The position numbers were made by a program, and so were the translations under genes. A DNA stretch of 64,000 nt from Micromonospora nigra. Lineage in GTDB: Bacteria; Actinomycetota; Actinomycetes; Mycobacteriales; Micromonosporaceae. How positions within the stretch are numbered: the first letter of the stretch is position 1; each line of letters begins with the position of its first letter. A model generated the notes under the pieces. It saw only the letters and a program-made list of their open reading frames with translations. It did no database searches and was not told the origin of the DNA. Location: the NCBI RefSeq assembly GCF_900091585.1, contig NZ_FMHT01000003.1, positions 3,959,501 to 4,023,500 on the forward strand, read 5' to 3'. Below are positions 364-5,973 of the stretch, one piece after another.

Positions 364-978
364 TCAGTCGGCCCGGGTCTCGACGGTGCTCCGCTGACTG
401 CGGGTGGCGACGAGGGTCATCGCCCAGCCGGCGGCGGCGAAACCGAGGGCGGCGACCCCCGCGATCAGCGCGAGCCGCCAGGCCGAGCTGGTCAGCGCCG
501 TCCCGCCCAGGTGACCGACCAACCCCCCGTACGTCGCCCAGCCCAGCGCCGCCGTGCCCTCGTACAGCAGGAACAGCCGGTACGGGTAGCGGCTGCGCCC
601 GGCGGCGAAGCAGGCCGCCATCCGGCCACCCGGCACGAAACGGCAGAGCAGGATGACCAGCGGCCCCGGACGGCGCAGGCCCCGGGTGACCCGGCCGGCG
701 ACCCGGCGGGCCCGGCCGACGGGGCCGGCTCGGGGCTCGCGTCGCCCCGGCGTCCCCCGCCCCAGCAGGTAGCAGGCCAGGTCGCCGGCGAACACGCCGA
801 CCGCGCCGACGGCTATGGTCAACGGCAGGTTCAGCCCGCCGTAGACGGTCAGGGCACCACCGGTGATCATCAGAAGCTGGGTGGGGATCACCGGCACGAA
901 GGCGTCGGCGATCAGCAGGCCGAGCAGCGCGAGGTACGCCCAGACCGGCGACGCGACCTCAGTGAGTAGTTCGGGCAC
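364..978 (-). CDS. DedA/SNARE-associated family membrane protein
   Basis: About 204 residues with several hydrophobic segments. An N-terminal helix (PVWAYLALLGLLIADAFVP) is followed by the DedA signatures: a proline-rich VIPTQLLMITGG segment, GDLACYLLGR, and the RFVPGGRMAACFAAG re-entrant motif. The family is thought to act as polyprenyl-phosphate or phospholipid flippases in the inner membrane; the substrate here is unknown. The frame stays open to 1095, but the GAGGTGG Shine-Dalgarno-like element favours a GTG at 978 (981 is an alternative). The residues upstream of it are arginine-rich and not family-like. The 3' end faces the end of the lpdA-like gene with 21 bases between them. Confidence 0.8.
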   Translation of the reverse strand: MPELLTEVASPVWAYLALLGLLIADAFVPVIPTQLLMITGGALTVYGGLNLPLTIAVGAVGVFAGDLACYLLGRGTPGRREPRAGPVGRARRVAGRVTRGLRRPGPLVILLCRFVPGGRMAACFAAGRSRYPYRLFLLYEGTAALGWATYGGLVGHLGGTALTSSAWRLALIAGVAALGFAAAGWAMTLVATRSQRSTVETRAD

Positions 979-1381
979 CACTGCCACCTCGCGGAATACG
1001 GCCGATCGGGCGTACGGAGCCTGACGGCATGTCCGGCGGCACCGGCGGCGACCCCGGCCCGTGGTGACCGTCGACACGGCGGGGGCCTCCCGCATCCGAC
1101 GAACCGGTGACGGTCGCGGGTCGGCGGGTGCGTCCCGTGATCAACGAGCCGAGGTGGGTGGTGGTTGCGGGTCGGTGGTCGCCGGATCGGCGTGGCTCGG
1201 CGTACCGTGGTCCTCGCGCGGCCCCACGACGTCGGGTCCCCGTTCCTGACGGCCGGGCCGCCGGGCCGCCGGCAGGTCCCGTGCCGGCGGCCCTTCCCCT
1301 GTCCGGGCTGGGTCGTCGTCCCCGTGCCGACGCCCCGTTAACCGGGTGCGGTGCGGGCCGCCGCGCCGGTACCGTCGCCGC
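979..1381. other. 403-base intergenic region with one strong hairpin
   Basis: No convincing gene lies between the DedA start and the threonine leader peptide. It contains a perfect 12-bp inverted repeat (arms 1263-1274 and 1282-1293, loop of 7) that could end transcription or act as a structural repeat. Just before the leader is a -10 hexamer (listed separately). I recognise nothing else. Confidence 0.5.
1370..1375 (+). promoter_or_regulatory. -10 hexamer TACCGT of the threonine leader
   Basis: TACCGT lies 6 nt before the ATG at 1382, the spacing of leaderless actinobacterial transcripts in which the start codon is also about +1. No convincing -35 element is seen. This would make the leader peptide the first thing translated from the transcript. 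Confidence 0.45.
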
Positions 1382-1435
1382 ATGCGCAGCGCGGCCGTGA
1401 CCACGACGTCGGGAGTCCCCGGCGCGCCGCACTGA
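1382..1435 (+). CDS. Putative threonine attenuator leader peptide, 17 aa
   Basis: The short frame reads MRSAAVTTTSGVPGAPH and then stops. Three consecutive threonine codons (ACC ACG ACG, 1400-1408) sit in a peptide upstream of a threonyl-tRNA synthetase homologue, with a strong hairpin between them. That is the classical layout of ribosome-mediated attenuation: a shortage of charged Thr-tRNA would stall the ribosome on the Thr codons and change the folding of the RNA downstream. The peptide itself probably has no other function. The assignment is by architecture; no expression evidence is available. Confidence 0.6.
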   Translation: MRSAAVTTTSGVPGAPH

Positions 1436-1449
1436 CACATCCGTCGACC

Positions 1450-1478
1450 AGGCCCCGGGGCGATCCGCCCCGGGGCCT
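1450..1478 (+). terminator. Attenuator hairpin before the thrS paralogue
   Basis: AGGCCCCGGGGCG (1450-1462) pairs perfectly with CGCCCCGGGGCCT (1466-1478) around the loop ATC, giving a 13-bp stem. It lies 14 nt after the stop codon of the leader peptide and 52 nt before the synthetase ATG. There is no U-tract, as is common for actinobacterial terminators. CCCCGG at 1417-1422 inside the leader can pair with 1455-1460 and might form part of an antiterminator; that alternative fold is inference. Confidence 0.6.
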
Positions 1479-1530
1479 CGCGCGTCCGGACCGGGTCGCC
1501 TTCGGGCCGTACCCGAACGAGGAGCGCGAC

Positions 1531-2745
1531 ATGATCGACCACCGGAGGCTCGGCCGCGAGCTGGAACTGTTCCTCTCCGACCCACTGGTCGGGGCGGGAC
1601 TGCCGATCTGGCTGCCGGCCGGCGCCGCGGCCCGGCACGCCGTCGAGGAGTACGTCCGCGAACTGGAGCGGCAGGCCGGTTATCAGCACGTCTACTCGCC
1701 TGCGCTGGGTCGGCGGGAGATGTACGTGCGCTCGGGACACCTGGAGTTCTTCGCCGACGACATGTTTCCGCCGATGTCCCTCGGTGGCGACGAGGTGATG
1801 CTGCGTCCTTCGCTGTGCCCGCACCACGCCCTGGTGTTCGCAGCGCGCGGGCGTTCCTGGCGGGAGCTGCCGTTGCGGGTGGCGGAGCTGGGCGGCATGT
1901 ACCGGGCCGAGCGGTCCGGCGTGCTCGGTGGGCTGTCCCGGGTGCGGGCCATCTCGCTCAACGACGCCCACACCTTCTGTGCCGTCGAGCAGGTGGGCGA
2001 GGAGGTCGAGGCCGTTCTCGGGCTGATCCGCGAGGCGCACGCCGCGCTCGGCGTACGCCCGGCCGGGTACCGGCTGTCGCTGCGCGGACCGGGCCGGCAG
2101 TACGTCGGCGACGAGGCCGGCTGGGCGCTGGCCGAGAAGCTGCTCCGGGCCGCGCTCGCCGGGCTCGACTACGCCGAGGCACCCGGCGAGGCGGCCTTCT
2201 ACGGTCCCAAGATCGACATACAGATCCGCGACGCGGCCGGGCGGGAGTCCACCATCTCCACCCTTCAACTCGACTTCGACAAGCCCGAGCGGTTCGACCT
2301 GTCGTACACCGGCCCGGACGGGGCCCGGCGGCGGCCGGTGATGGTGCACCGCAGCCTGGTGGGCAGCATGGAGCGGTTGTTCGCGTATCTCATCGAGGTG
2401 CACGAGGGAGCCTTTCCCGCCTGGTACGCCCCGGTGCACCTGCGGGTGCTGCCGGTCGACGACGGGCAGTCCGGCGCGGCGGCCGACCTGGTCCGTCGGG
2501 CGGTAATCGGTGGCCTGCGGGCCGAGGTCGACCGGGGCGGCTCGCTGGGCGCGCGGATCCGCGACGCCGCCCGCCGGAAGACCCCGTACGTCGCAGTGGT
2601 GGGCCCGCGCGAGGCGGCCCGGGGGGAGGTCTCCCTGCGCCTGCGCGGCGGGCGTGCCCTCGACCCGGTGCCGGTCGCGGAGGCGCTCGCGCTGATCGGA
2701 CGGGTGGTCGACACCCGCGCGGCGTCCCTGTTGCCGGCGGGCTGA
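1531..2745 (+). CDS. Short threonyl-tRNA synthetase paralogue (catalytic core plus anticodon domain)
   Basis: 404 residues, well below the roughly 640 of full-length ThrRS. The protein begins directly with the class II catalytic core and lacks the N-terminal TGS and editing domains. Zinc/threonine-binding residues are preserved: Cys96 (SLCPHH), His147 (NDAHTFC) and His273 (VMVHRSLVGS). Motif 2 is MYRAERSGVLGGLSRVRA at 123-140. The C-terminal part (from about 300) is the anticodon-binding fold. It should be able to charge tRNA-Thr but not hydrolyse Ser-tRNA-Thr in cis. The start ATG has a GAGGAG site. It follows the TTT leader and hairpin, so control by threonine supply is likely. A role as a resistant or stress-induced spare enzyme is inference. 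Confidence 0.85.
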   Translation: MIDHRRLGRELELFLSDPLVGAGLPIWLPAGAAARHAVEEYVRELERQAGYQHVYSPALGRREMYVRSGHLEFFADDMFPPMSLGGDEVMLRPSLCPHHALVFAARGRSWRELPLRVAELGGMYRAERSGVLGGLSRVRAISLNDAHTFCAVEQVGEEVEAVLGLIREAHAALGVRPAGYRLSLRGPGRQYVGDEAGWALAEKLLRAALAGLDYAEAPGEAAFYGPKIDIQIRDAAGRESTISTLQLDFDKPERFDLSYTGPDGARRRPVMVHRSLVGSMERLFAYLIEVHEGAFPAWYAPVHLRVLPVDDGQSGAAADLVRRAVIGGLRAEVDRGGSLGARIRDAARRKTPYVAVVGPREAARGEVSLRLRGGRALDPVPVAEALALIGRVVDTRAASLLPAG

Positions 2746-2911: not shown

Positions 2912-5070
<2,159 letters not shown>

Positions 5071-5076
5071 CAGCTT

Positions 5077-5973
5077 GTGACGGGACTGGACTTCACCCAG
5101 CTACGTACGCTCACCGCGGTCGTCACCGAAGGCAGCTTCGAGGCGGCGGCCCGGTTTCTGCACGTCACCCCGTCGGCCGTGAGCCAGCGGATCAAGGCGT
5201 TGGAGGAGACGGTCGGGCAGGTGCTCGTCCGACGGCACCACCCGTGCGAAGCCACCGAAGCCGGCCGCCCGCTGCTACGCCTCGCCGGGCAGCTCGCCCT
5301 CCTCGAGCGCGAGGCGCTGGCCGACGCGCGGGGCCCGCTCGGCGGCGGCCGGGGCCGCACGCGCGTCGCCGTGGTGGTCAACGCCGACTCGCTCGCCACC
5401 TGGTTCCCCGCCGCGCTGGCCCGCCTGCCCGCCCGGCCCGAGCTGTCCTTCGACATTCGGCAGGACGACCAGGAACACACCGCCGACCTGCTGCGCGCCG
5501 GATCGGTCACGGCCGCGGTGACCGCGCAGCGCGAGGCCGTGCAGGGCTGTCGGGTACGGCGGCTGGGCGCGATGCGCTACCGGGCGCTGGCCGCACCGGC
5601 ACTGGCGGACCGATGGTTCCCCGACGGGCCCACCCGCGCCGCGCTGACCACGGCACCGGTGATCGTCTTCGACCGCAAGGACCGGGTGCAACACCGGTTC
5701 ATCCGCTCGGTGACCGGGTGTGCGTTGGAACCACCGGTGCACTACGTGCCGTCGGTGCCGGCGTTCAGCGAGGCGGTGCGGCTCGGGCTCGGCTGGGGCA
5801 TGGTGCCGGACCAGCTCGCCGCCGCCGACCTGGCTGCCGGGCGCTGCGTCGACCTCGCACCGGGCCGGACGGTGGACATCCCGCTGCACTGGCAGCACTG
5901 GCGGCTCGACTCGCCGGTGCTGACCGCGCTGACCGCCGCCGTGTGCGAGGTCGCCGTCGACGCGCTCCACTGA
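5077..5973 (+). CDS. lysG: LysG/ArgP-type LysR family transcriptional regulator
   Basis: 298 residues. The N-terminal winged helix-turn-helix (about 5-62) reads FTQLRTLTAVVTEGSFEAAA and TPSAVSQRIKALEETVGQVL, and is followed by a periplasmic-binding-protein-like effector domain. Members of the ArgP/LysG branch sense lysine or arginine and activate the adjacent exporter. The start GTG at 5077 is supported by a -10 box 6 nt upstream and by the distance to the HTH; no Shine-Dalgarno site is seen. It is divergent from lysE. Its 3' end meets accA, which ends at 6002 on the opposite strand, with a small GAGCC/GGCTC hairpin between them. Confidence 0.88.
   Translation: MTGLDFTQLRTLTAVVTEGSFEAAARFLHVTPSAVSQRIKALEETVGQVLVRRHHPCEATEAGRPLLRLAGQLALLEREALADARGPLGGGRGRTRVAVVVNADSLATWFPAALARLPARPELSFDIRQDDQEHTADLLRAGSVTAAVTAQREAVQGCRVRRLGAMRYRALAAPALADRWFPDGPTRAALTTAPVIVFDRKDRVQHRFIRSVTGCALEPPVHYVPSVPAFSEAVRLGLGWGMVPDQLAAADLAAGRCVDLAPGRTVDIPLHWQHWRLDSPVLTALTAAVCEVAVDALH

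Follow-up and report, generated by a model that had tools for sequence, protein, structure and literature searches.

A conserved threonine leader ahead of short threonyl-tRNA synthetase genes of actinobacteria is a probable ribosome-mediated attenuator

What controls a short threonyl-tRNA synthetase (ThrRS) gene in Micromonospora nigra, and could a small threonine-coding frame just ahead of it be the switch? The window (the whole 64-kb stretch of DNA that was analysed) carries this gene, thrS, at 1531..2745 (ATG 1531, 404 aa; TIGR00418, PF00587, PF03129). Upstream of it lies a 17-codon frame of the thrL type, MRSAAVTTTSGVPGAPH (1382..1435; ATG 1382, TGA 1433-1435), in which the putative regulatory threonine codons ACC ACG ACG occupy 1400..1408. 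All features are on the plus strand unless marked otherwise. A GC hairpin (3:4), placed by folding and covariation at 1450..1478 (1450-1462 with 1466-1478), is presumed to be a terminator. It is a perfect 13-bp stem with a 3-nt loop that starts 14 nt after the leader TGA and ends 52 nt before the thrS ATG. An earlier note on this DNA had described the 17-codon frame, its three threonine codons, the stop, the 13-bp hairpin and thrS, and all of these are exact in the sequence, distances included.

The leader is preceded by a -10-like TACCGT (1370..1375) that ends 6 nt ahead of the ATG, in agreement with the leaderless spacing claimed in the same note. A -35-like GTGCGG (1346..1351), assigned from geometry alone, stands 18 nt before the -10 and 3 nt past a degenerate WblC/WhiB7-type box, GTTAAC (1337..1342). 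This box starts 33 nt upstream of the start of the -10 and is a poor match to GAAAWY (4/6). The published distance from the WblC box GAAAWY to the -35 downstream of it is 3 nt (PMC7157823). Among relatives, an exact GAAAWY 31-36 nt upstream of the -10 occurs in 51/174 regions, versus 1.4 in shuffled sequences and 0/170 at a control position, and 5 or 6 of the 6 positions match in 132/174 (8.8 shuffled, 3/171 at the control position). Streptomyces coelicolor thrS2 is among the WblC-activated genes, together with lysS, alaS2 and trpS (PMC7157823). SCO3778 is named threonyl tRNA synthetase (PMC10771440), and we infer that thrS2 is SCO3778 and encodes the short form.

Further structures are predicted around the leader. 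Hairpin 1:2 (1407..1424) pairs 1407-1413 with 1418-1424, and a small stem at the leader stop codon (1433..1446) pairs 1433-1436 with 1443-1446. An alternative helix, 3:5 (1458..1501), proposed from covariation and RNAalifold, pairs 1458-1465 with 1494-1501, two G-U pairs included. The putative thrS Shine-Dalgarno (SD) site GAGGAG lies at 1519..1524. The fold of 1436-1480 has an energy of -31.5 kcal/mol (z -4.57) and that of 1382-1480 an energy of -59.1 kcal/mol (z -3.86). Directly 3' of hairpin 3:4, positions 1479-1486 read CGCGCGTC and contain no U tract. The window has no match to the T-box or any other Rfam family at gathering score, and a known RNA family was rejected on this ground.

In the surrounding locus, a VTT-domain membrane protein (364-1002, minus strand) is divergent from the leader, and an IMPDH/GMP-reductase-like gene with CBS domains (2912-4348, minus strand) is convergent with thrS. 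Beyond these, a LysE-type exporter (4411-5007, minus strand) is divergent from a LysR-type regulator (5077-5973, plus strand).

A search of both strands of the 64-kb window for TAnnnT, 6-7 nt, ATG or GTG and 10-25 codons with TTT found no second frame. The same scan of 80 orthologous loci (both strands, 1,071,798 nt) gave 72 TTT matches. Since 72 of the 80 loci have leaders with TTT, the scan count equals the leader count, and the background is inferred to be zero matches. The features noted for the leader are exact and exceed chance expectation.

The leader is widely conserved. In a sample made up of the best 80 of 101 relatives plus further genomes, 175 of 180 regions upstream of short, editing-less thrS contain it (169 distinct, six being identical second copies), a count that includes one doubtful match, L116, and leaves out the unparsed L213 and L218. 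The five regions that lack it include L118 and L214, where thrS is full-length or similar to full-length, L221, which lies at a contig edge, and L230, where the gene has a long N-terminal extension and the stretch covered may be too short. Among the first upstream regions, 117/118 have the leader, and the exception is the full-length thrS of L118. The leader was found upstream of 0/20 full-length thrS genes, for which whole stretches were scanned (35,069 nt). The earlier note had proposed an alignment of orthologues as a check, and the leader, the threonine run, the leaderless spacing and the hairpin all recur there.

The plan of the leader is constant: TAnnnT/C, 6-7 nt, a start codon, 16-26 codons with Thr-Thr, a stop and a GC hairpin. 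The distance from the -10 to the start codon is 6 or 7 nt in 175/175 leaders, and the longest threonine run has three codons in 165 leaders, two in nine and five in one. The peptides (16-26 residues) are MRSAVVTTTPGIPGAPH-like in Micromonosporaceae and MQRA..TTTPESVPAR-like elsewhere; the window's core, TTTS..VPGAPH, is the Micromonosporaceae form of the family consensus TTP..VPAR. Hosts are Micromonospora, Salinispora, Nocardia, Streptomyces fumanus and Streptosporangiaceae, as well as genomes outside the class. Three genomes of the phylum that lie outside the class (L117, L119, L215) have the leader with a GTG start. One locus, L188, the fifth region that lacks it, keeps the hairpins and the SD region while a leader frame was not found; it counts against attenuation, and may serve as a natural control for the role of the leader. 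In another, L243 (genome G008), thrS has a large internal deletion, yet the leader, -10 and hairpin remain, which suggests a recent loss of the gene.

The short thrS itself is patchily distributed. At E 1e-115 it is present in at least 27/51 genomes of the genus of G083, which we take as Streptomyces, in at least 3/5 genomes of one family and in at least 8/35 of another; these counts are lower bounds, as a genome scored as lacking the gene (G428) has both leader and gene. A leader-core pattern, which misses the window's own leader (TCG for CCG), gave 32 matches over 148 genomes, 19 of them just upstream of short thrS by coordinates. The other 13 lie elsewhere, and the one inspected (L313) is a long frame unrelated to thrS. 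Because a backward control of the pattern gave 3 matches, these 13 need not all be chance.

The leader and the gene body divide the threonine codons between them. At each of the last two regulatory positions, 174/175 leaders have ACG; one codon earlier, 108 have ACG and 58 have ACC. Threonine accounts for 1.8% of residues in 146 short thrS genes (1047/58,631), with ACG for just 11 of these 1047 codons and in 10/146 genes. The six threonines of the window's thrS are all encoded by ACC. G-ending codons are common for other residues of the same 146 genes (Ala 38%, Pro 69%, Val 42%, Ser 45%, Gly 25%). In full-length thrS, the corresponding core (18/19 genomes parsed) has 4.3% Thr, with ACG for 62/313 and at least one ACG in each of the 18 genomes, and 30 neighbouring ORFs at Micromonosporaceae loci use ACG for 288/1148 Thr codons. 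Of the 49 tRNA loci in the genome, 30 were examined, and they include tRNA-Thr genes for the anticodons CGT, TGT and GGT. The ACG ACG pair might be kept as RNA sequence and not as codons, which would count against an attenuator. Hairpin 1:2 covers part of the last ACG and leaves the preceding one outside, so its pairing does not account for both.

Elf et al. (2003) are said to have found that needed enzymes avoid starvation-sensitive codons. In selective-charging theory, leaders favour the codon whose tRNA is the first to lose its charge and whose reading suffers most under starvation (PMC1183508). The split between leader and gene fits this theory and lends independent support to attenuation by uncharged tRNA-Thr. 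Such a split could be sought at alaS and trpS too, which have leaders in S. lividans (PMC8079986) and WblC activation (alaS2, trpS; PMC7157823).

The paired segments were compared in alignment A1, which holds 51 distinct sequences (51 of 61 cut fragments). Hairpin 1:2 is paired in 99.7% of cells and hardly varies. One C-G pair of this hairpin is replaced by T-A at L046 and at L247, a copy of it, and both amino acids differ as well. For hairpin 3:4, 91.7% of cells are paired and double changes number 26 versus 7.7 in shuffles, a test inflated by the relatedness of the rows, as are all shuffle tests on this alignment. The compensatory changes that the earlier note had hoped for are thus present in the hairpin stems. 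The motif CGCCGG/CCGGCG is kept in 151/175 leaders. The stem at the stop codon was found in 104 of the 173 leaders that could be parsed out of 175 (55.4 permuted, max 70); outside Micromonosporaceae the count (36/93 versus 24.2, max 39) lies inside what permutation yields and does not go beyond chance.

We conclude that the leader is very probably a ribosome-mediated attenuator of a spare ThrRS gene, driven by uncharged tRNA-Thr. The earlier note had proposed ribosome-mediated threonine attenuation, and conservation in 175/180 regions and the compensatory hairpin changes support it. Comparison across relatives supplies the parts (leader, codons, hairpins, helix 3:5, promoter box, codon split and substitutions), and stalling, termination, antitermination and induction can be fitted to them as follows. 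The promoter, which in most relatives has a WblC/WhiB7-type box, would start transcription at or beside the leader ATG. When Thr-tRNA is plentiful, the ribosome would reach the leader stop and cover segment 2, hairpin 3:4 would form and the downstream gene would be off. When tRNA-Thr is uncharged, chiefly the ACG-reading species, the ribosome would stall at ACG ACG and open hairpin 1:2. Once free, segment 2 could engage the 5' arm of 3:4, and transcription would continue into thrS; helix 3:5 would probably let translation of thrS continue too. The product would be a stripped-down, Thr-poor and nearly ACG-free ThrRS that can be made during a shortage of Thr-tRNA.

The weak point is the presumed termination step, because U tracts are rare and the antiterminator barely beats shuffles. 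Of 175 leaders, 12 have at least 4 T among the 8 nt that follow the stem, and 19 have a TTT run. An antiterminator is predicted in 168/173 parsed leaders and in 76-83% of shuffled ones, a small excess for which it was dropped as proof of attenuation.

These observations leave room for control that is mainly translational, with hairpin 3:4 as a switch arm instead of a working terminator, a reading that we regard as possible but doubtful. Without stalling, 3:4 would form and the tail (segment 5) would fold onto the flank of the SD site; with stalling, segment 2 would take part of segment 3 or 4, and helix 3:5 would free the start site. In a variant, 3:5 and the lower part of 3:4 would coexist as a pseudoknot. 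Such a role is suggested by helix 3:5 itself, which joins the terminator arm and loop to the tail preceding the SD site, is incompatible with the upper part of hairpin 3:4, and is the best-supported covarying helix, suggesting a translational layer. It is paired in 94.9% of cells versus 42-52% when slid, and has 36 double changes versus 11.4 shuffled, a number reached by 0/500 shuffles (inflated by related rows), although further pair types are not above shuffles (306/500). RNAalifold picked it and omitted hairpin 3:4. Two near relatives, L189 and L190, differ at this helix by GAGT/ACTC versus GGGT/ACCC. Outside Micromonosporaceae, where 82/95 rows were parsed, loop and tail of the same leader are complementary in 49/82 cases versus 24.5 permuted (max 35, 2000 permutations). 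The rarity of U tracts points the same way, as does tail/SD-flank pairing outside Micromonosporaceae (43/85 versus 23.3 permuted, 85/95 rows parsed). This latter pairing tells against the reading in other respects: within Micromonosporaceae it shows no excess (29/55 versus 30.4, 55/80 parsed), in the alignment it is paired in 75.9% of cells with little covariation, and in the window its fold is not unusually stable (z -0.18). An SD-sequestering hairpin as the main switch was rejected for its weak covariation and this window fold. Helix 3:5 would also be hard to reach in time, because the tail is transcribed after 3:4. Several loci outside Micromonosporaceae (L097, L146, L157, L164 and others) have CGTCGT after the GC hairpin, by eye complementary to the ACGACG of the threonine codons; this candidate pairing was set aside.

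Two further readings dispense with the sensing of charged tRNA. The leader might be an operator-like RNA element, comparable to that of Escherichia coli thrS, to which a protein or ThrRS binds, and the small frame would be incidental. It is indeed largely conserved as RNA, down to CGCCGG/CCGGCG, but its length changes in frame (16-26 codons) while the threonine run is kept, and both the fixed leaderless spacing and the near-absence of ACG from the gene body (11/1047) fit a translated sensor; with no Rfam family matched besides, we consider this improbable. That nothing is regulated, and that a constitutive leaderless small gene simply lies beside a bystander hairpin, would suit a termination step that is only presumed, and our search turned up no experiment in this genus. 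The leader in 175/180 regions versus 0/20 controls, the codon split and the covariation of both 3:4 and 3:5 speak so strongly against it that we give it hardly any credence. Attenuation by uncharged tRNA-Thr thus stays the preferred reading. Its fullest version would be a two-layer switch, in which a leaderless ACG sensor and a helix 3:5 that extends control to translation stand behind a WblC/WhiB7-type promoter and ahead of an ACG-purged spare ThrRS. We put this version forward tentatively, as a possibility that we would not yet favour as a whole.

The window's thrS matches TIGR00418 at 410.6 bits (cut-off 383.65) and has the catalytic (PF00587) and anticodon-binding (PF03129) domains only, with neither a TGS nor an editing domain. 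The class II core, the anticodon domain and the zinc ligands are all present in the short ThrRS. The second ThrRS match of the genome lies within a 691-aa open frame, which is taken for the housekeeping gene. In a subgroup (L112, L154, L161, L164, L166 and L230), the DNA read by eye shows additional N-terminal sequence ahead of the DHRRLGR with which the short ThrRS usually starts, and His, Asp and Pro codons abound in it. The extension is possibly metal-binding or an unstable repeat.

Residues at borrelidin-contact positions differ between the short and full-length enzymes. In human numbering, with L290 and L300 partly misaligned in this comparison, M411 is replaced by A/S in 133/137 short ThrRS and A592 by S in 135/137, and each is kept in 17/19 full-length enzymes. 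L567 (L489 in E. coli) is K/Q in 131/137 short enzymes; it is kept in 12/19 full-length enzymes and Q in 5/19, and this last count makes the change less telling. Q460 is L in 137/137 short ThrRS, but also in 2/7 further full-length controls (7 of 22 parsed). Mutations of L489 and H309 raise the Ki of borrelidin 300- to 1000-fold in E. coli ThrRS, and human ThrRS L567R is inactive (PMC4389257). We hypothesize that the short ThrRS may tolerate inhibitors such as borrelidin, and put the chances at about even.

Other organisms have second ThrRS genes tied to zinc or to inhibitors. ThrRS T2 of Anabaena answers zinc shortage (PMC4787780), and a zinc-sparing paralogue of this kind was rejected here, the zinc ligands being present. 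ObaO of obafluorin producers has Gly463 changed to Ser (PMC11252418); such a change was likewise rejected, as the Gly is kept in the window and in the motif of 134/149 short enzymes. S. parvulus, which produces borrelidin, likewise has an inhibitor-linked second ThrRS (PMC4389257). The drug-site residues altered here differ from those of these systems.

The closest precedent for the leader comes from S. lividans TK24, where thrL (SLIV_19412) lies upstream of thrS (SLIV_19410) and has a leaderless start determined from RNA-seq (PMC8079986). Like the family described here, it is a leaderless peptide, MKRVRPFLETTPGFVPAR, with the TTP..VPAR core, thrS downstream and one hairpin that lacks a U-rich stretch, and it is almost certainly the same element as the window's leader. 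On the strength of this leader, we infer that the S. lividans thrS is probably the short paralogue. Unlike the present comparison, that account concerns one genome and a leader with two threonines, and its available text contains no species comparison, pairing, codon analysis or promoter box; its authors state that termination at thrL is not clear (PMC8079986). The earlier note's description of the element as unusual therefore stands only in part: the kind is not new, a leaderless thrL before thrS having been reported in S. lividans (PMC8079986), while the breadth of the leader, the ACG codon split and the covarying helix 3:5 are apparently new. A literature search by title and start of abstract, in which subscription journals were thinly covered, found no further study of a thrL-type leader. 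Related elements are known for other amino acids. In Streptomyces, trpS and leuS are preceded by attenuators (PMC1262725), and S. lividans has the leaders alaL, trpL2 and leuL2 before synthetase genes for ala, trp and leu (PMC8079986); these too are short cognate-codon leaders, several of them leaderless, and differ in the amino acid. Seliverstov et al. (2005) report nothing conserved for threonine in the available text (PMC1262725).

Classical systems offer further parallels. The thr leader of E. coli controls a biosynthetic operon. Ribosome-mediated transcriptional attenuation reportedly controls the gene of an auxiliary, indolmycin-resistant TrpRS in S. coelicolor (Vecchione and Sello, 2010). 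This system is likewise reported to combine a spare synthetase, a cognate-codon leader and inducible tolerance to an inhibitor; it concerns tryptophan and is experimental, unlike the window's leader, which is known from sequence. The E. coli thr operon leader is a Thr-codon leader as here, with eight ACC codons (PMC1183508) instead of the ACG ACG end. On the features examined, the window's leader would belong with the classical leader-peptide attenuators.

The leader and short thrS offer a clean test case for selective charging, as the ACG split is almost complete over 146 genes. If the two-layer switch is true, a ThrRS would be made just when ACG is unreadable, and inducible tolerance to ThrRS inhibitors would extend across actinobacteria. 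The patchily distributed short ThrRS of actinobacteria is likely an inducible back-up against a shortage of Thr-tRNA or against ThrRS inhibitors.
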